From Streptomyces lydicus (GTDB lineage Bacteria; Actinomycetota; Actinomycetes; Streptomycetales; Streptomycetaceae), in the NCBI RefSeq assembly GCF_001729485.1, contig NZ_CP017157.1:1116001-1180000 (forward strand): a stretch of 64,000 nt of DNA, written 5' to 3'. The position numbers were made by a program, and so were the translations under genes. How positions within the stretch are numbered: position 1 is the stretch's first letter; each line of letters begins with the position of its first letter. Under the pieces are notes generated by a model. It saw only the letters and a program-made list of their open reading frames with translations. It had not been told where the DNA came from and made no database searches. This document shows positions 9,342-53,020 of the stretch, piece by piece.

Positions 9342-9370
9342 TCTTTGCGTTTTGCTAGCCTCGGGAGGAA

Positions 9371-9411: not shown

Positions 9412-9454
9412 ACCCCTGTTGAAGCTCGTGGAGCTCTTTCGTGGAGGTGCCGTC

Positions 9455-9775: not shown

Positions 9776-9791
9776 CGCCGCCCGCGGCGGG

Positions 9792-37531: not shown

Positions 37532-37535
37532 TGGA

Positions 37536-37868
37536 TCACTCCGGCGGCAGCGACCGGCCGTCCCGGCGCTTGGGGATCACCTTCGGTGCGGCGGTTCCCG
37601 CACCGACCGCGGCCCGTTCCGTCTCCTCGGCCCGGCCAGGGCGGCTGACCTTCTCCGGTTCGGGGATCAGCAGGTCGCCGATCTCGCAGCCGAGGACCAC
37701 GCAGATGACGTCCAGGTCCTCCAGCTTGAGCGAGACCGGCTGGCGGGACCACAGCCCGGACATCTTGCCGGCCGAGATCACCAGGCCGTGCTCGGCCAGG
37801 CTCCGCTGGAGCTCGGACGCCTTCCAGATACCCTTGTGCGCGGCGGTCAGCCGCAGGTTCCACCTCAT
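37536..37868 (-). CDS. XRE-like helix-turn-helix protein of the recombinase trio
   Basis: A 110-residue protein with a Cro/C1-type domain: MRWNLRLTAAHKGIWKASEL, KMSGLWSRQPVSLKLEDLDV, ICVVLGCEIGDLLIPEP. A charged tail follows. Its ATG overlaps the stop of the upstream integrase by 4 bp, and the downstream recombinase starts 4 bp after its stop. This is the middle gene of the integrase - HTH - recombinase trio common in Streptomyces mobile regions. It may be an excisionase-like or regulatory DNA-binding factor. It is itself intact, although both partners are broken. Confidence 0.8.
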   Translation of the reverse strand: MRWNLRLTAAHKGIWKASELQRSLAEHGLVISAGKMSGLWSRQPVSLKLEDLDVICVVLGCEIGDLLIPEPEKVSRPGRAEETERAAVGAGTAAPKVIPKRRDGRSLPPE

Positions 37869-38947: not shown

Positions 38948-39937
38948 TCACGGAATGTCGCACACTCCGTCGGCCCGGGCGGCTCTCGCGCGGCGGTTGT
39001 TGACGAGGGCCGCGCCGATGAGGGAGATGACGCCGCCCACGAGGCCCAGGAGGCTGGGGAGTTCGTGGAGGAAGGCGAGGGAGATGAGGATGGTGATGAG
39101 GGGGAGGGCGTAGAGGGCGGAGGTGGAGGCGGAGACGTCGAGGCGGGCCAGGGCGTAGTTCCACAGGAGGTAGGCCACGGCGGCGGGGAAGATGCCGAGG
39201 TAGACGAGAATGAGGAGGTTGGGGGTGGTCGCCGAGGCCAGCTGGTGGGTGAGGTCGCCGGCGAAGGGGAGCATCATCAAGGTGCCCGGGATCGTGACGT
39301 AGAGGTTCAGCTCCATGGAGCTGTAGCGCGTCAGCAGCGGCTTGGACAGGACGAAGTAGAGGCTTTCGGCGATCGCGGCGGCCAGCACGTAGATGGTGCC
39401 GATGTTGACGGAGAGGCCGGCCTGGTCGGCGAAGAGCATGACGACCGTGCCGACGATGCCCACCCCCACGCCGATCCAGCCGACCACCGCCACCCGCTCC
39501 CGGAGGATCGCGGCGGCCAGCATGATGCTGAACACCGGGACCTGGCCGACCAGGAAGCTCGCGGTGCCGGGACTGACCGTCTGCTCGCCGAAGTTCACCC
39601 CCAGGTTGTAGATGACGATCAGCAGCAGGGCGCAGAGCAGCAGCAGCGGGATGTCGCGGCGGGCCGGCAGCCGGAGGCGTTCGCGGCGGAGGCGGGTGGA
39701 GACCAGCCACAGGGCCAGCAGGCCCAGGGACGCCACGGTGAAGCGGAGCAGGGCCATCGGCCCGGGGGTGAAGTCGTGCAGGGCGGAGCGGATGCCGACG
39801 AAGGCGGAGGCCCACAGGGTGAGGGCCCCGGCCAGGGCGAGCCAGACCGTGGCCGGGGCCCGGCGGGGGGCCGGGCCCGTGGGGCCCGGCCCGGCCGCCG
39901 GTCGTGCCGGCCGCTCGGTGGAGTGCTCAGCGGTCAT
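38948..39937 (-). CDS. EamA-family exporter, last gene of the N-N locus operon
   Basis: A 329-residue drug/metabolite transporter with ten predicted helices in two EamA repeats (WLALAGALTLWASAFVGIRS opening repeat 1, YVLAAAIAESLYFVLSKPLL opening repeat 2). EamA proteins export small metabolites and amino acids. The ATG at 39937 overlaps the stop of the WD40 protein gene by 4 bp, so it is translated with the biosynthetic genes. The likely role is efflux of the product or an intermediate (inference). A second EamA exporter heads the locus at 51036-51998. Confidence 0.88.
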   Translation of the reverse strand: MTAEHSTERPARPAAGPGPTGPAPRRAPATVWLALAGALTLWASAFVGIRSALHDFTPGPMALLRFTVASLGLLALWLVSTRLRRERLRLPARRDIPLLLLCALLLIVIYNLGVNFGEQTVSPGTASFLVGQVPVFSIMLAAAILRERVAVVGWIGVGVGIVGTVVMLFADQAGLSVNIGTIYVLAAAIAESLYFVLSKPLLTRYSSMELNLYVTIPGTLMMLPFAGDLTHQLASATTPNLLILVYLGIFPAAVAYLLWNYALARLDVSASTSALYALPLITILISLAFLHELPSLLGLVGGVISLIGAALVNNRRARAARADGVCDIP

Positions 39938-42336
39938 GAGCGGGTCCTGTCTATGAGAATGCCGCCGAGGAGGGCGTCGAGGTGGCCGCGGTGTGCGGTC
40001 CGGTTGTCCTCTCCCCCGTACCCGTAGCGGTCGAAACTGTGCAGGTGGTCGGGGAGGCCGGCGGGCGGCTCCGCCCCGTCCACGGTGACCGGCAGCCAGC
40101 GGATGCGGCGGCCCGCGGCCCGGGTGCGGGCGGTGAGCCGGGCGTACGGCTCGGCCAGCGGACCGGCCGGCCAGCCGCGGGCGGCGAGGGACGGGGTGAG
40201 CAGCAGCAGGGCGGTGCGGGCGTCGAGGGTGGACTCGGTCAGCGGGTCGGTGCGGTGCTCGCCGTAGGTGGCGCGCAGGCCGAGGGTGGTGAGTTCGGCG
40301 GCCAGGGCGGCCGCGGTCGGGTGGTCCTCGGGGGTGTGCCAGAGATGGACGTCGGGACGGTCGTGCCCGGCGAAGCCCTCGTTCAGCAACAGCCGTTCCT
40401 GGCGGGCCCGTTCGTCGTCGACGTGCTCGTCGACCAGGGCCACCCGGTCGTCGGCCCGGGGCGGCAGGTCCTCGCGGGTCAGGGCCCAGACGCGGGTGGC
40501 GGCGGGGTCCCAGGGGCGCAGGCTGCCGGGCACGGTGAGCGGCAGGGACGTGGTGCGGCGGACGGGTGGCGCGGCGCCGGGGCAGGCGCGGGCCAGGCGC
40601 CGGGTCAGGAGGGCGGTGAGGAGGGCGCGGTCCTCGTCGCGGGCCGCGGCGACGCGGACGGTGAGGCCGTCGCCGGGTACCTCACCGGTGAACCGCGCCG
40701 TCACCCGTACGGGGTGGCCGTCGTCGGTCAGGGCGGTCAGGCCCCGGTGGTCGGCGGCCCAGTGGCGGAACAGGGTGGTGTGGAGGACGTCGGTCAGGAC
40801 GCGCGCCGGGGTGTACGGGCCGGCCTGCGGGAAGCGGAGTTCCGTCGCGTCCGGCAGGGTCTCCGGCACCGCCTCCGGACGTGTGCCCCGCCCGCTCGCC
40901 GGCACCGCGTCCGGCTCGGCCTGCGCCCCGGCCGGGGGGACCCAGAGTTCCCCCGGCCGGGTGGTGTCGGTGAGCAGGGCGCGGCCGGTGCGCACGAGCA
41001 GGGCGCCGACCAGGGCCGCCGTCGTGGCGGCCGAAGGACCGCCGCTCCCGTCGCCCCCGCCGGCCGCCGCCGGTGCGGAGGCCGGCAGCCGCTCGACGGT
41101 GGGCCGCAGCGGCAGGTCCGCGCCCGGCGCGGCGGCCGCCGCGGTGACACAGCGGTCGGCCAGCCGCCGGAGCCGGGCCGGGTCCAGGGCGGCCACCCGG
41201 CCCCCGAGGAAGCCGAGCGCGCCCGCGTCGGCGGCCCGTGCGAACTCCGCCTCCGCCCAGCCCTCCGGCTTGCGGAGGGCCGGCAGTGCGGCGGCGAGGC
41301 GGCTGGTGGCGGCGGTGAGGGTCAGGTGGTCCCGGCCGGCGCGCCGGGCGTCGGCCAGCACGTCCCGCAGGACGCCGCCCACCTGCCCGGCCACCTCCTG
41401 CTCCCCGGGCGCGGCACCGTCCGCCGGCGCCAGGGGCCACAGCCGGACCTCCTGGCCGTCGGCGTCGGTGCCCGCCAGGAGACCGGCCGTCGGGGACGCC
41501 TCCAGACAGCCGGTCCAGCCCGGGTAGGCGTCCGCGCGGCGCCACTGAGGCCGGCCGGTGCGGGCGTCCCACACGGCGACGGTCTGGTCGTGCGAGAGGG
41601 TGGCGAGGACGGCGCCGTCATGGCTCGCGGTGACCCGGGCGACCGCCCCGCCGTGGCCGTCGATCGTGGCCCGGAGCCGCAGCGTGCGCGGGTCCCACAG
41701 GTGCACCCGCCCGGCGGCGTTGCCCGTCGCCAGGCCCCCGGGCCACCAGCACACCGTCCAGACGCTGCCCGGCCCGGCCGCGGGCCGCGCGCGGACCGTC
41801 CAGTCCGCGGTGTCCCAGACCGTGAGGTCCGAGCCGCGCGCGGTGGCGGCCAGCGCGGCGCCGTCCGGGGACCAGGCCAGGCTGAGGAAGACCCCGTAGG
41901 GGCTCGTCAGGGGGCGGGTGACCGGGCGGCCGTAGCGGTCGGTGACCACGAGCCGCCGGTCGCCGCCGGCGGCCGCCAGCCGGCGGCCGTCCGGCGCCCA
42001 GGCCACCGCGTTGACCCAGCGCCGGTTGCGCTGCGGGGTCGCCAGCCGTTCGCCGGTCGCGGTGTCCCAGATGCCGACGGTGCCGTCCTCCGCGCCGGAG
42101 GCCAGCAGGGCGTCGTCCGGGGTCCAGGACAGGGACCGTACGGCCCCGTCGTGGCCGCGCAGGGTGGACAGCAGTTCCGCGGCGCCGGCGCGGGGACGCC
42201 AGATCTTGATCAGTCCGTCGTTGCCGCCGGTGGCCAGGCGCTGCCCGTCGTGGGACCAGGACAGCGCGCAGAGCCCGGCGGGGTGGGCGTGCCAGCCGGC
42301 GGTCGCCGGCGGGCACGCCACGGGCCTCGCGGTCAT
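39934..42336 (-). CDS. WD40 propeller protein with TIR-like C-terminal domain
   Basis: An 800-residue soluble protein. Residues of about 15-320 contain seven WD40 repeats (for example LCALSWSHDGQRLATGGNDG, LIKIWRP, LASGAEDGTVGIWDTATG, VLATLSHDQTVAVWDARTG), enough for one complete propeller. A helical middle (about 340-560) holds DHLTLTAATSRLAAALPAL and a winged-helix-like part. The last 140 residues read like a TIR-type fold: DVHLWHTPEDHPTAAALAAE, LGLRATYGEH, ARTALLLLTPSLAARGW, RRIRWLPVTVDGAEPP and SFDRYGY, in the order of TIR strands. The catalytic glutamate of NADase TIRs is not certain. It overlaps the N-hydroxylase stop and the exporter start by 4 bp each. Role unknown; TIR by pattern only. 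Confidence 0.7.
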   Translation of the reverse strand: MTARPVACPPATAGWHAHPAGLCALSWSHDGQRLATGGNDGLIKIWRPRAGAAELLSTLRGHDGAVRSLSWTPDDALLASGAEDGTVGIWDTATGERLATPQRNRRWVNAVAWAPDGRRLAAAGGDRRLVVTDRYGRPVTRPLTSPYGVFLSLAWSPDGAALAATARGSDLTVWDTADWTVRARPAAGPGSVWTVCWWPGGLATGNAAGRVHLWDPRTLRLRATIDGHGGAVARVTASHDGAVLATLSHDQTVAVWDARTGRPQWRRADAYPGWTGCLEASPTAGLLAGTDADGQEVRLWPLAPADGAAPGEQEVAGQVGGVLRDVLADARRAGRDHLTLTAATSRLAAALPALRKPEGWAEAEFARAADAGALGFLGGRVAALDPARLRRLADRCVTAAAAAPGADLPLRPTVERLPASAPAAAGGGDGSGGPSAATTAALVGALLVRTGRALLTDTTRPGELWVPPAGAQAEPDAVPASGRGTRPEAVPETLPDATELRFPQAGPYTPARVLTDVLHTTLFRHWAADHRGLTALTDDGHPVRVTARFTGEVPGDGLTVRVAAARDEDRALLTALLTRRLARACPGAAPPVRRTTSLPLTVPGSLRPWDPAATRVWALTREDLPPRADDRVALVDEHVDDERARQERLLLNEGFAGHDRPDVHLWHTPEDHPTAAALAAELTTLGLRATYGEHRTDPLTESTLDARTALLLLTPSLAARGWPAGPLAEPYARLTARTRAAGRRIRWLPVTVDGAEPPAGLPDHLHSFDRYGYGGEDNRTAHRGHLDALLGGILIDRTRS

Positions 42337-43685
42337 ATACCGGCCCCGGTGGGTTCCAGGACGGGCATCTCCAGCGTGGTGGTGGTCTTGCCTCCCCAGT
42401 CCACGGTGGTGCCGTCGACATCCACGTCGTACAGGTACCGGCCGGTCAGGCTGTTGACGATGACGCCGCTGCGCCAGGCCATCCCGGCGAAGTTGGGGTC
42501 GATCCAGCCGTGGGTGTGCAGGGACATGTTGTGGGCGAAGATCCGGTGGTCCGGCGGGCCGTCCCAGCGCAGCGAGAAGTCCTCGTTGACGACGCACCGG
42601 CCGTCCTCGTCCAGGACCAGCCGGTCGGCGAGCTGGTCGAGCACCGCCGGCACGCCGTTGGAGAAGCCGGTCGCCAGGATCACGATGTCGGCCTCCACCG
42701 CCTCCACGCCGTTGGGGCCCTCCATGGTGAGCACCCAGCCGTCGGCCTTCGGGGAGACCCGGGTGAACTGGCGGTCCACCAGCATCCGGTAGTCCAGCCC
42801 GCGGTCGTGGAGGAAGTCCGTCTCGTACAGCCGGCGGTAGATGCCCTCCAGCAGCGGCTGCAGGATGGCGTCGCTGGAGAGCTTCTGCATCGGCAGCAGG
42901 CGCTGCCGCTCGGCGGGGGTCTGCGCGTGGAAGTAGCGCGTGTAGCCCGGCACGTACAGCTCGTTGGCGAACGGCGACTCGTCGAACGGCGCGAAGTTGC
43001 CGCGCCGGGTGACCCAGGTGACCTGGGAGGGCAGCCGGGCGTCGTCGGAGATCAGGTCGTCGAAGATCTCCGCGCCGGTCTGCCCGCCGCCGATCACCGC
43101 GACGCGCTTGCCGGTGGGGTCGATGTCGCGCAGCAGGTACTCGCTGCCGTGGAAGACGGTCTCGCCGAGGTGGGCGCGCGCCCCCTCGGGGACGAAGGGC
43201 GCCCGGCCGACGCCGAGGACCACGTCCTTGGCGCGGTACTCGCCGCGGTCCGTGCCGGCGACGAACGCCCCGCCGTCGAAGGTCAGCGACTCGACGCCGG
43301 TGCCGAACCGGAGCGTGTCCAGGCTGCGGCAGATCCACTTGAAGTACTCGTTGAACTCACGGCGTTTGACGTTGGGGTGGTCGGCGACCACGAAGCGGTT
43401 CAGCCGGCGGCTGCGCGAGAGGAAGTTGAGGAACGAGTACTCGCTGGTCGGGTCGACGAGCGTGACGCAGTCCTTGAGGAACGGCGACTGCAGCGTGGCG
43501 TTGCGGAACAGCAGGCCGGGGTGCCAGTCGAAGGCGTCCTTGCGGTCGAGGAACCGGGCGGTCACCCCGTCCTTCGGCAGCAGGGCGGCGGTGCTGAGGT
43601 TGAACGGGCCGATGCCGATGCCGAGCACGTCGAGGGTCTCGGCGGACGGTGCGGTCCCGGCGGGGCGGTTGCGGTGATCGGACAC
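42333..43685 (-). CDS. L-lysine/L-ornithine N-hydroxylase (FAD, NADPH)
   Basis: A 450-residue flavin monooxygenase of the lysine N6-/ornithine N5-hydroxylase family. It has the FAD site DVLGIGIGPFNLSTAALL (about 19-36), FDWHPGLLFRNATLQSPFLK in the substrate/FAD region, the NADPH site VAVIGGGQTGAEIF (about 205-218) and the ATGFSNG stretch near 365. It converts the side-chain amine to a hydroxylamine. GTG 43685 is chosen because GTGAGGAGCAACTGACC precedes it. It starts 2 bp after the MetRS-like gene. In siderophore loci such an enzyme sits with NRPS or NIS genes, which are absent here. Beside a MetRS-like protein it signals hydrazine formation. Confidence 0.92.
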   Translation of the reverse strand: MSDHRNRPAGTAPSAETLDVLGIGIGPFNLSTAALLPKDGVTARFLDRKDAFDWHPGLLFRNATLQSPFLKDCVTLVDPTSEYSFLNFLSRSRRLNRFVVADHPNVKRREFNEYFKWICRSLDTLRFGTGVESLTFDGGAFVAGTDRGEYRAKDVVLGVGRAPFVPEGARAHLGETVFHGSEYLLRDIDPTGKRVAVIGGGQTGAEIFDDLISDDARLPSQVTWVTRRGNFAPFDESPFANELYVPGYTRYFHAQTPAERQRLLPMQKLSSDAILQPLLEGIYRRLYETDFLHDRGLDYRMLVDRQFTRVSPKADGWVLTMEGPNGVEAVEADIVILATGFSNGVPAVLDQLADRLVLDEDGRCVVNEDFSLRWDGPPDHRIFAHNMSLHTHGWIDPNFAGMAWRSGVIVNSLTGRYLYDVDVDGTTVDWGGKTTTTLEMPVLEPTGAGI

Positions 43686-43687
43686 GG

Positions 43688-45250
43688 TCAGTTGCTCCTC
43701 ACGTGGCACACGGGTGCTATCTCGTCGGCGGTGAAGGTCTGCGGCGGCACGGGGGCCGCGGGGCGGGCGGGGCCGGACGCGCGGTCCAGGGCGGCGAGCC
43801 GCGGGCGGCCCGGCCTGCCGAGCGCCGTCCACAGGCGCTGCGCGGCCTCCGGCATGAAGGGCTCGGCGAGCAGTGCCACACCGGTCGCCCAGGCGGCGTC
43901 GGTGACCGGCGGCCGGGTCAGCCACTCGTCGAGGACCCGGACCGCGGCGGGCAGGTTGACCGCCGCCCCGGGCCGCAGCTGCGCCCCCTGTTCGTGGACG
44001 GCCGCGGCGATCCGGGCGGTGTCCTCGGCGGGCAGCGCGCCGCCGGCCCCGTTCGCCTGGCGTCCGGCGGCGGCGAGCCGTTCGCGGATGTGGTTGACGC
44101 TGTCGACGAAGGCGGCGACGGCGAAGTTGTCGCTACCGCTCGTCAGGTCCACATGGCTCAGGTGGTAGCGCAGCTCGTCGGCGGTCGCCGAGGTACGGGA
44201 GAGGAGCTCGTTCAGCCAGATGCCGTGTTTGCGGCTGGTGGAGCACTTCTCGCCCTCGAAGTCCAGGAAGTAGTTGGTCACCATGTGGTCGAACGCCTTG
44301 AGCCCGCCGTGGGCGTGTGCGAGCGCGTGGCTGGCGGCGACCCCGCCGACCGCGTTGTCGATGCCGAACAGCCCGACGGTGATCACGCCGGAGTCCCGGT
44401 GGAAGGCGTTGTGCTCGGTGCCGTGGCGCTGCCGGTAGACCTCGCCGCAGTAGAGGCTGAAGCCGAAGTACGGGTTGCTCAGCACGCCTTCGGGGCCGGC
44501 CAGTTCGCTCGGGATGCCCCAGCTGCCCGGCTGCGAGAGCCGTACCGCGCCCTTGGTCTGCCGCAGGTAGGTGACCGCGATGTCGGCGAAGTCGGGCGCC
44601 ACGTCCGAGGCCCGCACCGCGTCGACGACGTCCTCGACGGACGGCGGGCTCAGGTACCAGCTGTCGAAGTCCTCCCAGTCCAGCGGGCCTTCGTCCAGCC
44701 GCGAGTACGGTTCGAGGATCTCCGACGGCTGGTAGTGGTAGCCGCACTCCTCGCAGGCGTTGCCGCCGCCGGGGGTGTGGCACTGCGGGCAGGTGCCCTT
44801 CAGCCACACGCCGATGACATGGCGGCCGGTGTCCCGCGAGCGGGGCGTGGGGTCGGGCACCTTGACGGCGGTGCCGGCCGTCGCCAGCCGCTCCAGCAGC
44901 TCCTCGTGGGTGCGCCGGTAGGGCTCGGCGTGGTCGTCGGACAGCGGGCTGATCCAGTCGTCGAGCTCCACGCCGAGGCTGCGCAGGTCGTCACCGATCA
45001 GGGCGTGGAAGCGCCAGCAGGTCTCCGCCGGTGAGCGGCCCGCGTCGAGCGCGTCCAGCAGGATCCAGTTCTCGTAGGCGTCGCTGCCGCTCATCACCGA
45101 CACCTGGTGGCCCTCGCGGCGCAGGTGGCGGGCGAGCACATCGGCCCGCAGGTAGGCGCCCGCGGCGTGCCCGATGTGCAGCCGCCCGTTGGGCGTGGGG
45201 TGCATCGGTACGAGCAGATAGCGCTGTGGCGCCGGGGTTTCGGTGGTCAT
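43688..45250 (-). CDS. Stand-alone MetRS-like protein, candidate hydrazine synthetase
   Basis: A 520-residue class I synthetase-like protein. HIGH at 25-28 (NGRLHIGHAAGAYL), a zinc knuckle Cys154/157/166/169 (CPQC, CEEC) and KCSTSR at 335-340 in the KMSKS position place it with methionyl-tRNA synthetases. It is shorter than true MetRS and lacks a clear tRNA anticodon-binding domain, although residues after 360 are helical. In hydrazine pathways such as s56-p1 (Spb40), a MetRS-like domain fused to a cupin adenylates an amino acid and joins it to N6-hydroxylysine, giving an N-N bond. Here the cupin is not fused. Being paired with the N-hydroxylase makes that role likely; a tRNA-charging role is the alternative. 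Confidence 0.8.
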   Translation of the reverse strand: MTTETPAPQRYLLVPMHPTPNGRLHIGHAAGAYLRADVLARHLRREGHQVSVMSGSDAYENWILLDALDAGRSPAETCWRFHALIGDDLRSLGVELDDWISPLSDDHAEPYRRTHEELLERLATAGTAVKVPDPTPRSRDTGRHVIGVWLKGTCPQCHTPGGGNACEECGYHYQPSEILEPYSRLDEGPLDWEDFDSWYLSPPSVEDVVDAVRASDVAPDFADIAVTYLRQTKGAVRLSQPGSWGIPSELAGPEGVLSNPYFGFSLYCGEVYRQRHGTEHNAFHRDSGVITVGLFGIDNAVGGVAASHALAHAHGGLKAFDHMVTNYFLDFEGEKCSTSRKHGIWLNELLSRTSATADELRYHLSHVDLTSGSDNFAVAAFVDSVNHIRERLAAAGRQANGAGGALPAEDTARIAAAVHEQGAQLRPGAAVNLPAAVRVLDEWLTRPPVTDAAWATGVALLAEPFMPEAAQRLWTALGRPGRPRLAALDRASGPARPAAPVPPQTFTADEIAPVCHVRSN

Positions 45251-45276
45251 GGCACTCCTTCGTGCGTGCGGGGTGG

Positions 45277-46068
45277 CTAGATGTGCGGGACGTAGGGGGT
45301 GAAGTCGACGAGCAGGATGGAGCGTTCGCCGCGCTGCGCCTCGGGGCCCAGGCGCACCGGGCTGACGTAGTGGCTGACCTTCGGGTCGTACACGGCGTAC
45401 GAGTCCAGCGGGCCGTCGAGGGTGAACTCGGCCTCGATCAGCTCCTGGTTGACCTCCTGCGGGCGCAGGCCGGCGCAGCGCGGGGGAGCGATCACGTTCA
45501 CCCCGCCGGTGACGTTGTAGCGGCTGATCAGGTGGGCGAAGGTGAACGGTTCGCCGTCCTGGTGCAGGGCGTTGGGCGAGGGCACGGCGACCTCGTCGGC
45601 GCCGTCCACGGCCAGCTTGAGGAAGTGCACGCCGACGTGGACCAGGCCGTGGCGCAGGCTGTCCAGCTGGCAGGCTTCCTCGGCGTCGAAGAGGATGATC
45701 TGGCGCAGCAGCGCGTTGGCCCGGGCCTCGGGGGTGACCGCGGGGAAGCGGCGCCGCTCGCCGCGGTGCTCGGGGTTGTGGTCGCCCTGGTAGTACTCGG
45801 TGACCGGCCCGAGGGCCGGGTCCGGGGTGGTCGGCAGCCAGGTCAGGGACCGGTCCCAGGGGACGTAGACCGCGCGGCCGTACCTGCGGAAGCGGTGGGC
45901 GTGCGTGGCGTACGGGTCCGGGGGCAGCTCCGCGAACGCGTCCCGCAGCCGGCCGAAGAGCGCATCGGCGTCGTGCTCGCCGACCCTCTCCAGGAAGACC
46001 TCGCGGTCGTAGCGCTCAAAGCCTTTGCCGAGCAGCCGGGTTGATGCCTCGACGGACAGCGTCGTCAT
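45277..46068 (-). CDS. 2OG-Fe(II) amino-acid dioxygenase (PF10014 type)
   Basis: A 263-residue non-haem iron enzyme of the family that hydroxylates free amino acids such as isoleucine. The iron ligands fit His169 and Asp171 in NALHQDGEPFTFAHLI and His233 in KVSHYVSPVRL. An arginine for 2-oxoglutarate lies nearby (SPVRLG or RGERSILLVDF). NVTGGVN after the first ligands is family-typical. It could hydroxylate the amino-acid building block or the hydrazine product. ATG 46068 has weak ribosome-site purines. It lies 27 bp upstream of the MetRS-like gene, so both share a transcript, with a likely promoter in the 300-bp gap upstream. Confidence 0.85.
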   Translation of the reverse strand: MTTLSVEASTRLLGKGFERYDREVFLERVGEHDADALFGRLRDAFAELPPDPYATHAHRFRRYGRAVYVPWDRSLTWLPTTPDPALGPVTEYYQGDHNPEHRGERRRFPAVTPEARANALLRQIILFDAEEACQLDSLRHGLVHVGVHFLKLAVDGADEVAVPSPNALHQDGEPFTFAHLISRYNVTGGVNVIAPPRCAGLRPQEVNQELIEAEFTLDGPLDSYAVYDPKVSHYVSPVRLGPEAQRGERSILLVDFTPYVPHI

Positions 46069-46368
46069 GTTCTCTCACTCCGTGATTCGCTTCAGGGAAT
46101 CCCGCACCCGGACAGGGCGGGGCCGTTCGGACGTGCAGAGGAAAGGAAAAAAGGGCGGAAAAAGGGCGGGGAGGGGTAGGGAGGGGTGGGGAACGAGGGA
46201 GGGGAGGAAAGCACCGGCCGATGCGGCACAACCGAGGAGATGCGCAGATTCCTCAACTCGGGGTGTCCGGGAGGGATCGGCCGAGGGGGGAGTTCCGGTT
46301 CAGTGGGCCGGCCGCGTGCCGGGGACGCGCGGCCGGCCTGCCATCAGGGTCGTCGGTCTCCGTTCAGC
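46069..46368. promoter_or_regulatory. Intergenic region with long purine tract upstream of the core operon
   Basis: 300 bp without a gene, between the DJ-1 gene and the dioxygenase gene. On the plus strand 46137-46210 is almost all purine, including GGGGAGGGGTAGGGAGGGG (46167-46185) then TGGGG, capable of G-quadruplex formation. The gap probably contains the promoter of the dioxygenase - MetRS-like - hydroxylase - WD40 - EamA unit. Confidence 0.5.
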
Positions 46369-47067
46369 TCACAGGATGTCGCACAGCACCCGGGCGAGCG
46401 GCCGCGCGGACGCCGGGTTCTGGCCGGTCAGCAGGGCACGGTCACGGACGAGGTGCTCGCCCCAGGGCGGACCCGCGACGAAGCGGGCGCCGCGCTTGAC
46501 CAGGCGGCCCTCGGCCGTCCAGGGAATGAGGTCCAGCAGGCCGAGTTCGGCCTCCTCCTCGTCGGAGAAGGACGTCATCTCGTAACCGCTGAACAGCCAT
46601 TCACCGGCCACATCCATGGAGGACAGGAGCGCCGCCGGGCCGTGGCAGACCGCCGCGATGGGTTTTCCGGCGCGATGGAACTCGCTCAGCACCCGTCCGC
46701 AGTCGGGGTCGGCCCACAGGTCCGCCAACGGGCCGTACCCGCCGGGGATGAACACCGCGTCGAACCGTTCCACGTCGACGGCCGCCAGCGGCACCGGAGT
46801 GGTGAAGCGCGGACGCAGTGCCTCGACGGCGTCGATCAGTTCGGCGCAGCGCTCGGCGCTGTACCCGGTGCCCTCCGGGGTGAGCCCCGCGGGGTCGGCG
46901 CCGGCCGGTGCGCCTTCGGGGGTGGCGAGGACGGTGGAGATGCCGGCGGCCGCGAACACGGCCTCCGGATCCACGACCTCTTCCGGCCAGAATCCCGCGG
47001 TACGACAGCTTCCGTCGGTGAGTGGCAGCTCGGTGGCGGCTGACAGGATCATCAGGACCGACGTCAT
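46369..47067 (-). CDS. DJ-1/PfpI family protein
   Basis: A 232-residue protein of the DJ-1/PfpI glutamine-amidotransferase-like superfamily. The nucleophile elbow AVCHGPAALL gives Cys141-His142, and the acidic partner glutamate lies in GFWPEEVVDP (Glu29/30). VFIPGGYGPLADL is the usual strand-loop before it. Members act as glyoxalases, chaperone-like Hsp31 proteins or hydratases. Its extended length and the TPEGTGYSAE segment fit the Hsp31-like or related branch. In this locus it might detoxify an aldehyde or act on an intermediate, which is inference only. It follows the cupin gene by 85 bp on the same strand. Confidence 0.85.
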   Translation of the reverse strand: MTSVLMILSAATELPLTDGSCRTAGFWPEEVVDPEAVFAAAGISTVLATPEGAPAGADPAGLTPEGTGYSAERCAELIDAVEALRPRFTTPVPLAAVDVERFDAVFIPGGYGPLADLWADPDCGRVLSEFHRAGKPIAAVCHGPAALLSSMDVAGEWLFSGYEMTSFSDEEEAELGLLDLIPWTAEGRLVKRGARFVAGPPWGEHLVRDRALLTGQNPASARPLARVLCDIL

Positions 47068-47152
47068 GGCTGCTCTCCTTCCTGTGTGGGTGGGTTCGGG
47101 CGGTCGCCTGCGGTGCCCGCCGCGCGCGGCACGCGCCGCAGGCGACCCCCGC

Positions 47153-48226
47153 TTACTGGCCGGCCGGCTCCTCGGCGTAGAGGCCGAGTCGCTCCAGCAG
47201 AGGGAACTCGTTGTACGAGAACAGCACGGCCTCTTCGGTGCCGGGGTTGGCGTGGCTGTGCCACGACCAGGACGGCACGCAGAAGGTGTCCCCGGCGCTC
47301 CAGGCGTGGTCCACGCCGTCGATCGTCACGGTGCCGCGCCCCTGCGCGGCCACGTAGACGACCGAGCCGGTGTGCCGGTGGCTGCGGGTGTGCTCGCCCG
47401 CCGCCAGCAGCTGCAGCTTCGCGCCGACGGTGGGGGTCACCGACCCGCCCGTGGCCGGGTTGGTGTACTCCATGATCACGCCGTCGAAGGCGGAGTGCTG
47501 CCCGGCCCGCGCGGCCGCCGCCAGCGCCTCGCGGCACTTCTCCCACGGGAAGGAGAACAGCGGGGAGTTCTCGGCGCGCCGGCGGGTGTCGGGCAGCAGC
47601 AGGCCGCCGTAGCGGGCGAGGGTGTCGTTGCGCGGGCCGCCGGTGAGGTGGGTGCCCTGCGGGTGCAACTCGAAGAAGTTCGCCCCGAGGGTGTTGACCA
47701 GCGGATCGTCGGTGCAGTCCTGCCAGATGACGAGCCCGTCGTCGGCGTCGTTGCCGTGTTCGTGCCACAGCCGGCTGGGCGTGATCACCACATCGCCCGG
47801 GCCGACGGGCATCCGGTCGCCGTCGACGGCCGTCCAGCCGCCCTCGCCCTCCAGCACGAACCGGATCGCGGAGGCGGCGTGCCGGTGGGCGGTCATCCTC
47901 TCGTGCGGTTTGAGGGTCTGCAGCCCCGAGTACAGGTGGCCGACGGCCGCCTCGTGATCGGGGTGGCCGGGGTTCAGATGGGTGATCACCCGCAGGGCGG
48001 CGTCCTCGCCCTTGACGAACTCCGCGGCCTCGACGGCGAACGGACGCAGTTCCGCGTAGCGCCACAGGGCGGGCACCGAACGGGGGGCCGGGGTCCAGGA
48101 CTGGTTCTCGTTGGCGGCGCTCCACCGCCCGACGGCGTGGTGGTGGAGCAGCCGGCCGGCGAAGGTCTCCGGCTCCGCGGGCCCGGTCCGTCCGGGGCGG
48201 GCCACGCCGGTCAGGGCCGGGCTCAT
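47153..48226 (-). CDS. Bicupin protein, gentisate 1,2-dioxygenase-like
   Basis: A 357-residue double cupin. The first cupin holds MTAHRHAASAIRFVLEGEG and later RLWHEHGN. The second holds TRSHRHTGSVVYVAAQGRG and SWSWHSHAN. Histidines sit at iron-ligand positions in both, although usually only one site is active. The overall plan matches gentisate/1-hydroxy-2-naphthoate ring-cleaving dioxygenases. No other aromatic catabolism genes are present, so it may have been recruited for biosynthesis, or could supply the cupin function that is fused to MetRS in known hydrazine synthetases (a hypothesis). ATG 48226 overlaps the decarboxylase stop by 4 bp. Confidence 0.85.
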   Translation of the reverse strand: MSPALTGVARPGRTGPAEPETFAGRLLHHHAVGRWSAANENQSWTPAPRSVPALWRYAELRPFAVEAAEFVKGEDAALRVITHLNPGHPDHEAAVGHLYSGLQTLKPHERMTAHRHAASAIRFVLEGEGGWTAVDGDRMPVGPGDVVITPSRLWHEHGNDADDGLVIWQDCTDDPLVNTLGANFFELHPQGTHLTGGPRNDTLARYGGLLLPDTRRRAENSPLFSFPWEKCREALAAAARAGQHSAFDGVIMEYTNPATGGSVTPTVGAKLQLLAAGEHTRSHRHTGSVVYVAAQGRGTVTIDGVDHAWSAGDTFCVPSWSWHSHANPGTEEAVLFSYNEFPLLERLGLYAEEPAGQ

Positions 48227-49701
48227 AACGTGCTCCGTTCGGTCAGGCGCGGGGCCGCACAGCGTTCGGCGGCGGCGGTGAGTTCGCCCCACAGGGCGTC
48301 GATGTCGGCTTCGGTGGTGTGGATGTTCCCGATGGAGATGCGTAGCGCATACCCCGTGGGCAGCACGGTGTGCGAGACGAAGGAGGTCCCGGCGTCGTTG
48401 ACGGCCCGGTGGACGCGCCGGTTGAGCGCGTCGGTCTCCTCGTCGTCGAGGTCCCGGTCGTGCGGGCGGTGGCGCAGGCACACCAGCGGGAAGGGCGAGT
48501 CGTTCTCCACCGTCCAGTCCGGGTGGGCGCGGGCCCGCGCCCGCAGCCCGTCGGCGAGGGCGGCCGCGGCGCTCAGCCGGCTGGTGAGGCCCGCGACCCC
48601 GAACGTCTTGATCAGCCACCACAGTTTGAGCGCCCGGAACTGCCGGCCCAGCTGGAGCGAGTAGTTCATGAAGTCCACGCTGCCGTCCTCGTGGCGGGTG
48701 CGCAGGTACTCCGGTACGACGCGGAAGGTGTTGGTGAGGGCGTCGCGGTGCCGGCAGAACAGCGCGCCGGCCTCCATCGGGCTCAGCAGGACCTTGTGCG
48801 GGTTGGCCACCACCGAGTCGGCCCGGGACAGGTCGGGCAGCAGCGGGCGCACCTCGGGCGCCAGCCGCCAGAAGCCGCCGTACGCCGCGTCGACGTGCAG
48901 CCAGGTGTCGTGCGCGGCGCACACCTCGGCGATCTCCTCGACCGGGTCGATCGCCCCGATGGAGGTGGTGCCGACGTTCGCGACCACGGCCAGCGGCCGG
49001 TGCCCGCTGCGCACGTCCCGCTCCAGGGCCGCCCGCAGCGCCTCGGGGTCGAGCCGGCCGGTGGGACCGGCGGGGAGGCGTACGACGTTGTCGAGGCCGA
49101 TGCCGAGGGTGATCGCGGCCTTGTCGACGGAGCTGTGGGTCTGGTCGGAGGCGTAGATCCGCAGCCGCGGCAGGTCCCGGCCGGCCAGCCCCTGCTGCCG
49201 GATGTCCAGGCCGGACAGCCGCTCCCGGGCGGCGGCCAGGGCGTAGAGCGTGCCCAGGGAGGCGCCGTCGACGAGTACCGAGTCCTGCGCCACGGGGTAG
49301 CCGACCATCTGCGCGAGCCAGTCGAGGACCGTCAGTTCCACGGCGGCGGCGGCCGGCGCGGCGTCCCACAGCATCACGTTGACGTTCATCGCCGCGGTGA
49401 ACATCTCGGCCAGGATGGCCGGTCCGCTGGAGCTGTTGCTGAAGTACGCGTGGAACCGCGGATGGTTCCACAGGGTGAGGTTGGGACGGACGTCGTCCCA
49501 GGTCTGGCGGAGGATCTCGGGGAACGGCTGCGGTGCGGTGGGCAGCGGTTCGTCGATGACCGCGCGGATCTCCTGTGCGGAGCGCGTGGTGGTGACGGGC
49601 TGGGTGCGCAACGTCGTGAAGTGCTCGCGCAGTTGGGACAACAGGAGGTGGCCGTTCTTCTCCAGCTCTTCGGGGCTCCAGTCCCCGACGTTCTCACTCA
49701 T
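48223..49701 (-). CDS. PLP-dependent amino-acid decarboxylase (AADC family)
   Basis: A 492-residue group II decarboxylase. PLP is expected on Lys303 in NPHKVLLSP, with Asp271 in HVDAAYGG pairing the pyridine nitrogen and His189 stacking (SDQTHSSVDKAA). ANVGTTSIGAIDPVEEI is also typical. The family includes aromatic amino-acid, glutamate and diaminobutyrate decarboxylases and some amine-oxidising aldehyde synthases; the substrate is not readable. In a lysine-based N-N pathway it could remove a carboxylate from a building block or product. ATG 49701 is preceded by AGGACACCC. It is coupled to the bicupin gene by a 4-bp overlap. Confidence 0.9.
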   Translation of the reverse strand: MSENVGDWSPEELEKNGHLLLSQLREHFTTLRTQPVTTTRSAQEIRAVIDEPLPTAPQPFPEILRQTWDDVRPNLTLWNHPRFHAYFSNSSSGPAILAEMFTAAMNVNVMLWDAAPAAAAVELTVLDWLAQMVGYPVAQDSVLVDGASLGTLYALAAARERLSGLDIRQQGLAGRDLPRLRIYASDQTHSSVDKAAITLGIGLDNVVRLPAGPTGRLDPEALRAALERDVRSGHRPLAVVANVGTTSIGAIDPVEEIAEVCAAHDTWLHVDAAYGGFWRLAPEVRPLLPDLSRADSVVANPHKVLLSPMEAGALFCRHRDALTNTFRVVPEYLRTRHEDGSVDFMNYSLQLGRQFRALKLWWLIKTFGVAGLTSRLSAAAALADGLRARARAHPDWTVENDSPFPLVCLRHRPHDRDLDDEETDALNRRVHRAVNDAGTSFVSHTVLPTGYALRISIGNIHTTEADIDALWGELTAAAERCAAPRLTERSTL

Positions 49702-49740
49702 GGGTGTCCTTACGTGGCACAGGGAGCGGACGGCGGCGGC

Positions 49741-50064
49741 TCAGTGGTCGTGCTCGACCTCGACCTCCAGCTCGGTGGCGTAGCGGATCTGCCGCGGGCG
49801 GGTGCAGTACGTGCGGTACAGCGGTTCCGCCAGGGCCTCCTCGGTCTTCAGCAGGTCCTCGTGGTCCTGCTTGCTGCGCCACGCGTACTGCCACGTCACC
49901 TGGCGCGGATCGGCCTCGTCCTGGAAGAAGCTGGCGTGCCCGTGCCAGCCGGCGTGGGCGTGGGCGTTGTCGCCCAGCGCGTCGTCCATCTGCTGCATGA
50001 CCTTCGTCGCCTGCGTGGCGGCGTCGTCGTTCAGGTACCAGGTCTCGATCACCGTGATGGCCAT
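49741..50064 (-). CDS. Small ABM-like protein (107 aa)
   Basis: A 107-residue protein with the strand-helix pattern of dimeric alpha-beta barrel (antibiotic biosynthesis monooxygenase-like) proteins: ITVIETWYLND, a helix ATQATKVMQQMDDAL, a His-rich strand AHAHAGWHGHASFFQDEA, QVTWQYAWRSKQDHEDLL and a terminal acidic strand. Such proteins can be cofactor-free oxygenases or subunit-like accessories. The cluster of four histidines and the final HDH are unusual and might bind metal. The ATG at 50064 follows CAAGGAGACAGC. It lies between two other small genes of the locus. Confidence 0.6.
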   Translation of the reverse strand: MAITVIETWYLNDDAATQATKVMQQMDDALGDNAHAHAGWHGHASFFQDEADPRQVTWQYAWRSKQDHEDLLKTEEALAEPLYRTYCTRPRQIRYATELEVEVEHDH

Positions 50065-50108
50065 GGCTGTCTCCTTGAGGTGTGTGGTGTGTGGTGTGCG
50101 GGGGTGCG

Positions 50109-50618
50109 TCAGGCGTTGGCGTTGAAGTAGTCCTGGAGCAGCGACTGGCCGCCGGGGACGAACTTCTCGCAGATGAGCTTGTGGCTCGCGCGGTTCTGGG
50201 ACTGCGCCCGCCAGAGGCGGGTGGCGGCGCGCTCGACGTCCTCGGGCACGCTGCCCGCGCGGATGGCGCTCTTCAGGCCGGTGCGGATCGTGCGCATGAG
50301 GTGCAGCATCCGCTCGTGGTCGGTGTTGAACTTCCCGGAGAAGCCGGGGTTCAGCCAGGGCGGTTCCATGGACGGCCGGATGAGGCTCTCGTACGCCGTC
50401 GCCGGGAAATCCGACGCGTAGCGCATGCACGAGGTGGCGGCGCCGTAGAGCCGGCTGAGGGTGTCCAGCAGTGGCCGGGTGGCCTGCCAGTCACGTTCCT
50501 CGACGCATTTCTGTAATGACGTGAGGTACGTGTTCATCACGGTGAGATGCAGATGGAAGACGTGATGTCCGAGCTTCCACCGGCGCACTGCTGTCTGCTG
50601 TTCCTGCGATATGTGCAT
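50109..50618 (-). CDS. Unassigned helical protein in the N-N locus (169 aa)
   Basis: A 169-residue, mainly helical cytoplasmic protein (RRWKLGHHVFHLHLTVMNTY, then SRLYGAATSCMRYASDFPAT, HERMLHLMRTIRTGLKSAI). HHxxHxH near the N-terminus and HERMLH further on could form a metal or haem site, but no known family is recognised. ATG 50618 is used; a GTG directly before it is in frame. It lies 44 bp upstream of the ABM-like gene on the same strand. A new enzyme or a carrier-type partner is possible. Confidence 0.6.
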   Translation of the reverse strand: MHISQEQQTAVRRWKLGHHVFHLHLTVMNTYLTSLQKCVEERDWQATRPLLDTLSRLYGAATSCMRYASDFPATAYESLIRPSMEPPWLNPGFSGKFNTDHERMLHLMRTIRTGLKSAIRAGSVPEDVERAATRLWRAQSQNRASHKLICEKFVPGGQSLLQDYFNANA

Positions 50619-50668
50619 CACTGTCGCGCGCTCCCTTTTCCTACCGGGGGGTCGGAATTCCGGGCCGG

Positions 50669-50968
50669 TCAGCTGGCCATTTGCTGCAGCGTGTGCTGCA
50701 GGATGATGGCGATACCGTCAAGAATCTGGGCCTGTTCGCCGTCTTCCAGGCTGGTGTCCGGAAGATCGTCCCGGACTTTTTCCGCGATCGTCAGCACGGT
50801 GTGCACCCAGGCACCCTGGGACATATCGTCCTCGTGCTCGATGCGGAAATACGCGTCGTACTCGTCCGTCTCACTGATCGTTTTCGCCTCGCCCGGTGCC
50901 CGGCCGTTGCCGGGCAGCGTGATCGGGGCGATCAGGCGGTAATCGTCTACAAGAGTCTCTTCACCCAT
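50669..50968 (-). CDS. Unassigned acidic protein in the N-N locus (99 aa)
   Basis: A 99-residue strongly acidic protein (DDYRLIAPITLPGNGRAPGE, then ETDEYDAYFRIEHEDDMSQG and DTSLEDGEQAQILDGIAIIL). No cysteines and no membrane helix. No family is recognised. It lies between the EamA exporter and the 169-aa gene and probably begins the run of small biosynthetic genes. The start ATG is at 50968. Confidence 0.6.
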   Translation of the reverse strand: MGEETLVDDYRLIAPITLPGNGRAPGEAKTISETDEYDAYFRIEHEDDMSQGAWVHTVLTIAEKVRDDLPDTSLEDGEQAQILDGIAIILQHTLQQMAS

Positions 50969-51035
50969 GACGTTTCCCCGTCGGTTGGCAGAACTTCCGT
51001 CAGAACGGTCTTGCGCTTACCGGGTACTACCTCAT

Positions 51036-51998
51036 TCAGGAATGATTGCGGCCGGCCGGACGCGGGGTGCGGTGGGAGAACCACACCGCCGCGATCACGA
51101 TCACGCAGCCGACGAGCTGGGAGGCGCTGGGCGTCTCCCTCAGGATCACCAGTCCGAAGCCGATGGCCATCACCGGCTGGAGCAGGAGCAGGGCGGCGGA
51201 CGTGTTCGGCGCCAGCCGGGGCGTCCCGGTGCTGATCAGCAACCAGGCCGCCACCTGTCCCAGCAGGGCCAACGCGACCACCCAGCCCCAGGAGACCGGT
51301 GAGATCGACAGCGAGAGGCCCGTGGTGAACAGGCTGATCAGTCCGGCGGTCGCCGCGGCGGCGCCGGTGGAAATACAGATCGGTGTGACGACGTGCCGTG
51401 GGCTGCGCTCGCCGGAGGCCCGGTTGAGGTACAGGTACACGGCATAGGCGACTCCCGCGGCCACACCGAGCACCGCGCCGCGTACCGGATTACCGGATTC
51501 CGAGCCGCGTTCGAATGCGCCACTCGCCAGCGCGATTCCGGCCAACATCACCGGAATGGTGAAGACGAACCGACGGGAAATCGCCGTTCCGCCGAACACC
51601 CGCGCCAGCAGCGGGAATGCGATGACCTGCACGTTGATGAGTACGGTGGCCACCGCCGCACCCACGTCCAGGATGCTCATCGTCCACATGACGTAATCCG
51701 CGCCGAGAAAAACGCCCGCTATCACCGCATATCCCTGCAGCGGTCGCGCCAGCCACCCTTTGCGCCATACTTCGTGCGCGAGCAGCGGCACCAGGGCGAC
51801 CAGGGCTACGGCGCAGCGCAGGAATGCCGCGGCGCCCGCACTGATGTCGGCCAGCTTGACGAACATCGCCGAGGCCGACAAACAGGCGGCCCCGCCGATG
51901 ACCAACGCCGCGGCTCCCGTTGTGCCCTGCGGGCTGTCCGGGAGGGTGTCATCGGAGGTCGTCACAGAAGACGTTGAGGTCGCATCCACAACGTTCAC
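51036..51998 (-). CDS. EamA-family exporter, first gene of the N-N locus
   Basis: A 320-residue, ten-helix drug/metabolite transporter with two EamA repeats (AALVIGGAACLSASAMFVKL opening the first, GAVLGVAAGVAYAVYLYLNR opening the second, VLRET-type ILRETPSASQLVGCV near the end). It is probably an exporter for the product. GTG 51998 is the start of the widest frame. It is divergent from the LysR regulator gene with only 65 bp between, the usual arrangement for a gene directly controlled by that regulator. Confidence 0.88.
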   Translation of the reverse strand: MNVVDATSTSSVTTSDDTLPDSPQGTTGAAALVIGGAACLSASAMFVKLADISAGAAAFLRCAVALVALVPLLAHEVWRKGWLARPLQGYAVIAGVFLGADYVMWTMSILDVGAAVATVLINVQVIAFPLLARVFGGTAISRRFVFTIPVMLAGIALASGAFERGSESGNPVRGAVLGVAAGVAYAVYLYLNRASGERSPRHVVTPICISTGAAAATAGLISLFTTGLSLSISPVSWGWVVALALLGQVAAWLLISTGTPRLAPNTSAALLLLQPVMAIGFGLVILRETPSASQLVGCVIVIAAVWFSHRTPRPAGRNHS

Positions 51999-52063
51999 GA
52001 TGACAGCGTGAGCCCCGTAACACTATTCAAAAATCATTAGGTAAAAGCATTAGTCTGCCTTAC
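51999..52063. promoter_or_regulatory. LysR-EamA divergent promoter with CATTAG repeats
   Basis: 65 AT-rich bp. CATTAG occurs at 52035-52040 and 52048-52053, a 13-bp direct repeat suited to a regulator dimer. TAGTCT at 52051-52056 is a -10 box that puts the lysR transcript start at about 52063, beside ATG 52064, so that mRNA is probably leaderless. The repeat overlaps this promoter, which fits autoregulation. Confidence 0.55.
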
Positions 52064-53020
52064 ATGATCACCTGGGAGAGGTTACGTGTCTTTGCCGCCG
52101 TGGCCCGTCTCGGTTCCGTGGGTGCGGCGGCCGAGGCCCTGCACATCACCGGCCCGGCGGTGTCCCAGCATCTCCGCAAACTCGAGAAGGAGGCGCAGTG
52201 CCAGCTCATCGAGCGGGACGGCCGCGGCATCAGACTCACCAGCGCCGGGCAGGTGCTGGCCGCGTCCGCCCAGTCCATGGTGGGCACGCTCGCGGACGCC
52301 GAGCGTGACCTCGCCAACCTGCACGGCCTCGTCGCCGGGCCGCTGCGCATCGGCGGCGTCGCCAGCGCCCTCCGGGCGCTCGTCCCGCAGGTGCTGCACC
52401 GGCTGATCGAACGTCACCCGCGCCTCGAACCGTCGTTGCGGGACGGCGAGGCCGTCGACATGATCCCGATGCTGCAGGAGCGCCAGCTGGACGCGGTCGT
52501 CACGGAGAGCTGGACGCACCGCCCGGCCCACATGCCCTCCGGGGTCCGCACCACCCGGCTGCTGCACGAGGACGCCCAACTGGCGGTGCCCGCCGGGCAT
52601 CCGCTCGCCGACCGGGAGTTCGTGGCGCTGAACGAACTCCACGGCGAGCTGTGGACCAGCTGCCCGGAGGGGAGCGACGCGCACGAGGCGCTGCTGCAGC
52701 TGCTGCGCGCCCACGAGGTGGAGGCGGACGTGCGCTACTGCGTCTCCGACTACGCCACCCAGCTCCAGCTGGTGGCGGCCGGCCTCGCGGTGACGCTGGT
52801 GCCGCGCATGGTGCGTGCCTCCGCCTCCCAGGAGGTGCGGTTCATCCCCTGCCGGCCGACCGTGACGCGCAGCGTGATCGTGGCGACCGCGGCCGACGCC
52901 GAGACGCCGCGCGTACGGGCCTTCATGGCGGAGATGATCCGCGTCGCCTACCGGGCGGAGCCCAGCTGCCCGCCGCCCGGCCGGCCCGGCGCGGCGGCGG
53001 GCCCGGCCCCGGCGGACTGA
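52064..53020 (+). CDS. LysR-family regulator with a TTA codon
   Basis: A 318-residue LysR-type regulator. The N-terminal winged helix-turn-helix is standard (LRVFAAVARLGSVGAAAEAL, ITGPAVSQHLRKLEKEAQ), followed by the effector-binding domain (about 90-300) with PLRIGGVASALRALVPQVL and GLAVTLVPRM. A Pro/Ala-rich tail follows. Codon 7 (52082-52084) is TTA, rare in Streptomyces and dependent on the bldA leucine tRNA, a common device for tying secondary metabolism to development. It is divergent from the EamA exporter and probably controls the locus. A 15-bp terminator stem follows. Confidence 0.92.
   Translation: MITWERLRVFAAVARLGSVGAAAEALHITGPAVSQHLRKLEKEAQCQLIERDGRGIRLTSAGQVLAASAQSMVGTLADAERDLANLHGLVAGPLRIGGVASALRALVPQVLHRLIERHPRLEPSLRDGEAVDMIPMLQERQLDAVVTESWTHRPAHMPSGVRTTRLLHEDAQLAVPAGHPLADREFVALNELHGELWTSCPEGSDAHEALLQLLRAHEVEADVRYCVSDYATQLQLVAAGLAVTLVPRMVRASASQEVRFIPCRPTVTRSVIVATAADAETPRVRAFMAEMIRVAYRAEPSCPPPGRPGAAAGPAPAD

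Follow-up and report, generated by a model that had tools for sequence, protein, structure and literature searches.

Does a gene pair known from hydrazine biosynthesis still direct the formation of a nitrogen–nitrogen (N–N) bond when the third enzyme of the known route cannot be found? The question is raised by a locus of Streptomyces lydicus in which the genes for a flavin N-hydroxylase (NMO) and a stand-alone aminoacyl-adenylating protein resembling methionyl-tRNA synthetase (MetRS; the protein is hereafter designated MetRSL) are only 2 bases apart. The locus lies at positions 38948–53020 of the 64,000-nucleotide stretch analysed (the window; G000:C1:1116001-1180000, from a genome of 8.2 Mb in a single contig) and holds 13 genes: module B (2OG, MetRSL, NMO, WDTIR and EamA2), module A (EamA1, u99, u170, u107, decarboxylase, bicupin and DJ-1) and a LysR gene. 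A preliminary description had proposed that it makes a hydrazine. We found that the NMO/MetRSL pair was rightly tied to hydrazine-synthetase (HS) chemistry and that the cluster is genuine and unusual, whereas no HS-type cupin was detected in the locus or in the four genomes carrying module B; a hydrazine product is thus possible but not supported.

Relationship of the pair to hydrazine synthetases

MetRSL (520 residues) shares 24% identity (74 bits) with the housekeeping MetRS encoded elsewhere in the genome and scores 131 bits to PF09334, as against 495 bits for the latter. To 17 HS-type relatives (loci L053–L069) it scores 123–278 bits, and to those in L051 and L052 379–383 bits. Its best sequence match in the PDB was 9l8v (103 bits with the single sequence, 171.4 bits with a profile), named in the structure search as the C-terminal domain of PyrN with a glutamyl-adenylate analogue. 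This agrees with the earlier placement of the pair among HS clusters, with the caveat that the MetRS of P. abyssi, at 167.5 bits in the same profile search, nearly tied with PyrN; in a fold search, true MetRSs and PyrN ranked together (mean predicted local distance difference test score, pLDDT, of the AlphaFold model, 90.4). The MetRS fold and the closeness of the archaeal enzyme would also suit a second, resistant MetRS shielding the producer of a MetRS inhibitor, but we regard this as scarcely credible in view of the low identity to the resident MetRS, PyrN as the best sequence match and the position of its gene 2 bases from NMO in a cassette that all four genomes retain. A spare tRNA ligase was likewise thought unlikely, given the gap in PF09334 scores, the PyrN match and the 24% identity. 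A KxSTS loop, considered as an HS signature, was dropped because the housekeeping MetRS of this genome carries it too. Judged from sequence, MetRSL is probably an adenylating protein distinct from the housekeeping MetRS and appears nearer to HS-type proteins than to that enzyme.

In a 67-row tree, MetRSL (96% identical to its S. lydicus counterpart) fell within a 35-row clade with a Shimodaira–Hasegawa-like approximate likelihood ratio test (SH-aLRT) value of 100. A 20-row group (SH-aLRT, 90) lies next to it, and all six of its rows with a known locus (L053–L056, L064 and L065) have a cupin match nearby; the tree leaves open the branching order of the two groups. The tree is rooted on a single housekeeping MetRS, for lack of others, and is no test of closeness to tRNA-charging enzymes; it holds no archaeal-type MetRSs.

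Relatives of MetRSL were also seen with other partners. In L051 (9048–10619) and L052 (9102–10670), relatives of 43–44% identity adjoin a gene resembling a kinase/HAD fusion; neither locus has an NMO match or an HS cupin match, and L051 contains an atypical cupin (Cupin_2, 17.7 bits). In L146 (G1305:C3:1-15960; 4362–11096), a relative of 43% identity adjoins an acyl-CoA-dehydrogenase-type flavoprotein, together with genes resembling, by eye, an aminotransferase and GlmS, and the locus gave no NMO match; L146 is another partner set for the MetRSL clade.

The NMO scores 312 bits to PF13434, and two stronger PF13434 proteins (430 and 379 bits) are encoded elsewhere in the genome. In a 22-row tree, the NMOs of the four module-B genomes grouped with those of HS clusters (12 rows; SH-aLRT, 95), and the two stronger proteins, taken by assumption as siderophore enzymes, stood apart from this group (SH-aLRT, 99). 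With that assumption, the NMO does not appear to belong with the N-hydroxylases of hydroxamate siderophores, and its linkage to MetRSL is retained in all four genomes. Neither of the two findings that the preliminary description had named as refuting its view was obtained. In comparisons with PDB entries, it scored 225 bits to 5o8p (titled L-lysine 6-monooxygenase of desferrioxamine biosynthesis) and 215 bits to 6xbb (titled Monooxigenase), both of which we take to be cadaverine-type enzymes, 212 bits to the putrescine N-hydroxylase 7us3, 168 bits to the lysine enzyme MbtG and 144 bits to the ornithine enzyme KtzI. The corresponding values for 5o8p, 6xbb and 7us3 were 179, 172 and 170 bits (MbtG, 166) with an azaserine-type NMO and 331, 317 and 314 bits (MbtG, 168) with the NMO of Robbsia, whose gene lies two genes from a diaminobutyrate transaminase. 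Thus, of the 'lysine N6-hydroxylase' in the preliminary description, the lysine/ornithine-type N-hydroxylase stood, but lysine as the substrate is unproven, 7us3 outscoring MbtG. The Robbsia locus itself (L065, plasmid p1; 3577–9832) carries the diaminobutyrate transaminase, a decarboxylase-like pyridoxal 5′-phosphate (PLP) gene, NMO, MetRS-like and cupin genes in one run, and looks like a diamine-based HS cluster.

Absence of a detectable hydrazine-synthetase cupin

In HS chemistry, the MetRS-like part forms an O-aminoacyl ester, which a zinc cupin converts to the hydrazine (PMC8664883). The Glu residue of these cupins is essential, hydrazine formation being abolished in PyrN E56A and RHS1 E69A, and with an inactive cupin the ester becomes a hydroxamate non-enzymatically with a half-life of <10 min (PMC8664883). 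Moreover, MetRS paralogues were described as accompanied 'without exception' by a cupin and an NMO (Aravind et al. 2010, PMC2922099).

Within the motif [HDE]xHxxxE...H, the residues H65, E69 and H103 (numbered as in the first sequence) are invariant in eight HS cupins. Of 19 further MetRS-like loci compared (L051–L069), 16 gave a match near MetRSL with a model built from six HS cupins. Six of the 16 had supplied the model (64–75 bits when left out in turn) and ten were independent; L051, L052 and L061 gave none. The comparison covers these 19 loci and not L146–L148, which limits the contrast. In the module-B loci, the sole match was the bicupin (35–62 bits), apart from a 24-bit match about 20 kb away in S. 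fodineus. Whole-genome searches with a profile of all eight HS cupins gave 125, 77 and 64 bits for three HS genomes that had contributed no sequence to it and 159–166 bits for three that had. With the same profile, the best scores in the module-B genomes were 34.1 (G000, the window's own), 31.1 (G325, S. fodineus), 33.5 (G885, NBC_00237) and 33.6 (G1043, S. lydicus), about 150 of the 153–160 first-look candidates having been scored in each, and those in two control genomes were 35.4 and 32.7. These results suggest that a zinc cupin with the essential Glu is neither fused or adjacent to MetRSL nor encoded elsewhere in the four genomes.

The bicupin of module A, which the preliminary description lists among the other enzymes, might itself be taken for the N–N-forming cupin, being present in three of the four module-B genomes and weakly similar to the six-cupin model (up to 62 bits). 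We nevertheless consider this role very unlikely. The motifs of its two domains, HRHAASA and HRHTGSV or HRHTGAV, lack the catalytic Glu in all four orthologues. The sequence is gentisate-dioxygenase-like, although below the curated cut-off for gentisate 1,2-dioxygenase (TIGR02272, 291 versus 442 bits) and hence related without being a member. Furthermore, the two modules are separable, the bicupin being absent from the S. fodineus locus, where NMO and MetRSL occur, and present without them in Streptomyces sp. Ru73. The N–N bond proposed earlier therefore lacks support in the gene content: a search for the third component, the one that defines the known route, did not find it. With that enzyme lacking, the locus may make a different small molecule, or may form the bond in a new way. 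We found no account of a cupin-less, 2OG-linked MetRS cassette in the available portions of the open-licence literature.

Linkage of a 2-oxoglutarate oxygenase to MetRSL

The gene next to MetRSL in all four module-B genomes encodes a 2-oxoglutarate (2OG)/Fe(II) dioxygenase (hereafter designated 2OG when the protein is meant), in which H169, D171, H233 and R249, the HxD...H and Arg set of PF10014 amino-acid dioxygenases, are invariant in 20 aligned sequences; in this fold these residues bind Fe and 2-oxoglutarate. The linkage extends beyond these genomes. Nine of 48 MetRSL homologues are on contigs of exactly the same size as that of a 2OG homologue, which was taken to mean a shared contig, and shifting the sizes by 1–200 bases gave a mean of 0.14 coincidences (maximum, 2). 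All nine are among the 30 members of the 35-row clade known as proteins, and none is among the 14 homologues outside the clade. Because the comparison used 120 of 234 2OG matches, the sharing amounts to at least nine cases; in NBC_00237, the pairing was also seen in the sequence of the locus itself.

If module B still formed an N–N bond without a cupin, the most likely catalyst would be the adjacent 2OG, also a double-stranded beta-helix protein, with a different metal site. We rank this reading second and consider it possible but rather unlikely. It is favoured by this adjacency, by the contigs shared with at least 9 of the 30 clade members, by the invariant binding residues and by the precedent of VlmO in valanimycin biosynthesis, which brings another protein family into such a role (PMC11705231). 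It is disfavoured by the 2OGs of G959 and G952 (60–66% identity), which have no MetRSL or NMO in the 18–20 kb read and thus no ester to rearrange, and by the nearest named PDB relative, L-isoleucine 4-hydroxylase. In all, eight further 2OG loci (47–66% identity) showed no MetRSL or NMO within the 17–20 kb read. More specifically, an Fe(II)/2OG enzyme might have replaced the zinc cupin in this HS lineage, intercepting the O-aminoacyl-hydroxylamine to form the N–N bond or an oxidised azo or azoxy product. We think this improbable; if true, three catalysts would be known to act on such an intermediate, the zinc cupin and VlmO being the other two. The accessory genes listed for MetRS-paralogue systems include other families of 2OG dioxygenase, of the JOR/JmjC and phytanoyl types (Aravind et al. 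2010, PMC2922099).

In G959 (L111, contig C128; 4398–8961), 2OG adjoins an EamA2 homologue with no MetRSL or NMO in the 18–20 kb read, and an L-amino-acid-ligase-type ATP-grasp gene lies nearby. This arrangement suits a free-amino-acid oxygenase.

Distribution of the two modules

Both modules are rare. MetRSL of at least 70% identity occurs in 2 of 392 genus genomes (the window's own and S. fodineus), two more having 43–45%; u170 in three of the 392 (the window's own, Ru73, and G035 at 42%); and 2OG of at least 69% identity in 4 of 375 family genomes, all with the full module B. S. lydicus NRRL ISP-5461 (L004) has both modules in the window's order. S. fodineus has module B (2OG, 69%; MetRSL, 70%; NMO, 75%; WDTIR, 55%; EamA2, 66% identity), and no u170 was found in its genome. 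Ru73 has LysR (65%) and module A (EamA1 to DJ-1 as in the order given above: 67, 54, 69, 69, 71, 72 and 58%) and is not among the 60 of 392 genus genomes with a MetRSL match.

Streptomyces sp. NBC_00237 (L110 and L119) has all 13 genes at 34–79% protein identity in another order: LysR divergent from 2OG, followed by MetRSL, NMO, WDTIR and EamA2, an inverted EamA1, and a run from u99 through u170, u107, decarboxylase and bicupin to DJ-1 (34–62%). In the window and Ru73, LysR is instead divergent from EamA1. Outside either end of the NBC_00237 locus are open reading frames (ORFs) that, by eye, resemble transposases. The recurrence of all 13 genes in a different order in this genome shows that the set is a real unit and no chance grouping. 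The rarity of the modules, their shared LysR and the existence of two gene orders speak for a functional link between modules A and B, even though each exists without the other.

Predicted aromatic branch in module A

The 170-residue u170 gave 49 proteins at E ≤ 0.001. A profile of 48 sequences matched SfmD (E = 1e-16) and TyrH (E = 1.5e-10), and the predicted fold (mean pLDDT, 89.8) matched TyrH, SfmD, MarE and TDO. An HxxxC motif, kept in 47 of the 48 and aligned with that of SfmD, is suggestive of heme binding; SfmD reportedly carries a single heme thioether, according to a reference title. From profile and model, u170 is predicted to be a miniature member of the SfmD/LmbB2 group of heme aromatic oxygenases. 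LmbB2 forms 3,4-dihydroxyphenylalanine (DOPA) from tyrosine. Although like SfmD and LmbB2/TyrH in these respects, u170 differs in its short length and in its position beside a decarboxylase and the gentisate-dioxygenase-like bicupin, an association that suggests an aromatic amino-acid branch.

In L074 (G035:C7:262000-281999; 6837–11639), a u170 relative (43%) lies between two stretches resembling the decarboxylase (31–33%), the other module-A genes not being there; the heme enzyme/decarboxylase pairing may therefore be wider than module A.

The two modules might form one pathway, with an aromatic amine from u170 and the decarboxylase being hydroxylated by NMO and acylated by MetRSL. This would be compatible with the other readings, but we hold it to be doubtful. 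The rearranged set of NBC_00237 with a LysR common to both modules speaks for it, as does the best NCBIfam model for NMO, histamine N-monooxygenase (230 bits; cut-off, 700), whereas module A without module B in Ru73 and module B without module A in S. fodineus speak against it.

Proposed function of module B

The reading that we rank first, with rather less than even confidence, is that module B descends from an HS, has lost the N–N step and serves as a ligation cassette that yields a hydroxamate-type aminoacyl-hydroxylamine product. The sequences establish the gene content, the relationships and linkage, the lack of a detectable HS cupin and the intact 2OG residues; each reaction and substrate is inferred. 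NMO would N-hydroxylate a diamine or the amine of an amino-acid side chain, and MetRSL would activate an amino acid as its adenylate and attach it, without tRNA, to the oxygen of the hydroxylamine. Where a zinc cupin would otherwise rearrange it, the resulting O-aminoacyl ester would here collapse to an N-aminoacyl-N-hydroxyamine (hydroxamate), as the published chemistry predicts for an NMO and a MetRS-like enzyme without the cupin (PMC8664883). 2OG would act on the amino acid as a hydroxylase, either ahead of the ligation or following it, and EamA2 would export the product. Module A would be a linked aromatic branch with heme hydroxylation by u170, decarboxylation and ring cleavage by the bicupin. 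This reading is favoured by the kinship of MetRSL and NMO to HS enzymes, the low cupin-profile scores of the four module-B genomes, the missing Glu of the bicupin, the occurrence of each module without the other, the fate of the ester when the cupin is inactive, the contigs that 2OG shares with clade MetRSLs and the 2OG/EamA2 pair of G959.

Several points weigh against this proposal. It would be odd for a conserved cassette to end in a shunt product. A comparable N–N bond is made in valanimycin biosynthesis by the unrelated protein VlmO (PMC11705231), so that a missing cupin does not rule out N–N formation. L061, an NMO and MetRSL locus outside the clade, is likewise without a cupin match, which limits the contrast, and most clade MetRSLs are known as proteins only. 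WDTIR, conserved and coupled to both NMO and EamA2, has no part in the proposed scheme. Finally, the desferrioxamine/putrescine-type enzymes outscore MbtG by 57 bits with the NMO of the window, by 13 bits with the azaserine-type and by 163 bits with the Robbsia NMO; the window NMO thus lies between the two, and bit scores do not decide between a lysine and a diamine substrate.

WDTIR is present in all four module-B genomes. A role as an active TIR effector, or as a defence protein of a known kind, was rejected, since its TIR_2 score (17.4 bits) is below the 28-bit cut-off, the candidate TIR Glu is not conserved in the four orthologues, and the one PADLOC match (34.7 bits) concerns the WD40 part.

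Comparison with known systems

Module B resembles the fused (PyrN, Spb40, Tri28 and AzsN) and split (Afn8/Afn9 and Rhodococcus RHS1) hydrazine synthetases in having an NMO gene beside a MetRS-like adenylating protein, but has 2OG, WDTIR and EamA genes in place of the cupin. It also shares the MetRS paralogue and lysine/ornithine-type NMO of the systems described by Aravind et al. (2010, PMC2922099) but breaks their cupin rule. By its inferred chemistry, module B is like valanimycin biosynthesis (VlmH, VlmA and VlmO), where a hydroxylamine and an activated amino acid give an O-aminoacyl ester; VlmA, unlike module B, uses seryl-tRNA (PMC11705231). Pfam scans of the 13 genes detected no nonribosomal peptide synthetase, polyketide synthase or Spb39-like (hydrazine-cleaving) oxidase domain. 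This sets the locus apart from HS clusters and agrees with the preliminary description, the missing cupin being the more telling absence.

Gene organisation of the locus

All the ORFs named in the preliminary description are present at the positions and on the strands given there, and their families were borne out by the matches in Table 1; it had, however, omitted WDTIR, which overlaps NMO at its stop and EamA2 at its start, and the bicupin runs at 47153–48226, in a frame other than that of the ORF at 47064–48125. The 12 minus-strand genes overlap or are 2–85 bases apart, except for a gap of 300 bases between DJ-1 (end, 46369) and 2OG (start, 46068). Scans of 46000–52200 found no promoter (0.3 expected) and four terminators (2.0 ± 1.6 expected). 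Beside module B (36293–38810) are tyrosine-recombinase-like ORFs, XerC-like with 90 bits (37865–38500) and XerD-like with just 18 bits (36293–37531), together with a Cro/C1 helix-turn-helix ORF, and the GC content is lower close by at 34–36 kb; the recombinase-like and helix-turn-helix ORFs may mark an integration site.

Table 1 Genes of the locus, with positions in the window and supporting matches.
Gene	Predicted product	Position	Strand	Module	Support
EamA2	Putative drug/metabolite (amino-acid type) exporter	38948..39937	-	B	PF00892, 140 bits; adjacent in 4/4 module-B genomes including the window's own
WDTIR	WD40 propeller with degenerate TIR-like C-terminus, 800 aa	39934..42336	-	B	WD40 PF00400, 116 bits
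NMO	Flavin N-hydroxylase	42333..43685	-	B	PF13434, 312 bits
MetRSL	Stand-alone MetRS-like aminoacyl-adenylating enzyme	43688..45250	-	B	PF09334, 131 bits; best PDB sequence match 9l8v
2OG	2OG-Fe(II) dioxygenase, free-amino-acid (isoleucine 4-hydroxylase) family	45277..46068	-	B	PF10014, 103 bits; PDB 6lnh, E=1.6e-12
DJ-1	DJ-1/HchA-like protein	46369..47067	-	A	PF01965, 55 bits; NF003168, 74 bits (cut-off 365)
Bicupin	Gentisate 1,2-dioxygenase-like, without HS cupin Glu	47153..48226	-	A	TIGR02272, 291 bits (cut-off 442); motif comparison of 4 orthologues
Decarboxylase	PLP-dependent group II decarboxylase	48223..49701	-	A	PF00282, 292 bits; NF052646, 168 bits (cut-off 900)
u107	Small protein	49741..50064	-	A	No Pfam or NCBIfam match; in 4/4 module-A genomes including the window's own
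u170	Predicted mini heme-dependent aromatic oxygenase (SfmD/LmbB2/TDO superfamily)	50109..50621	-	A	Profile, fold and HxxxC
u99	Small protein	50669..50968	-	A	No family found; in 4/4 module-A genomes including the window's own
EamA1	Putative exporter	51036..51998	-	A	PF00892, 70 bits
LysR	LysR regulator	52064..53020	+		PF03466 and PF00126

Implications

The apparent lack of the cupin matters given the rule stated for MetRS paralogues (PMC2922099). Module A also brings together a compact predicted heme oxygenase, a decarboxylase and a dioxygenase of the ring-cleavage type. The conserved cupin-less lineage would mean either that a new N–N catalyst exists or that the NMO/MetRS-like pair can act as a stand-alone hydroxamate ligase.

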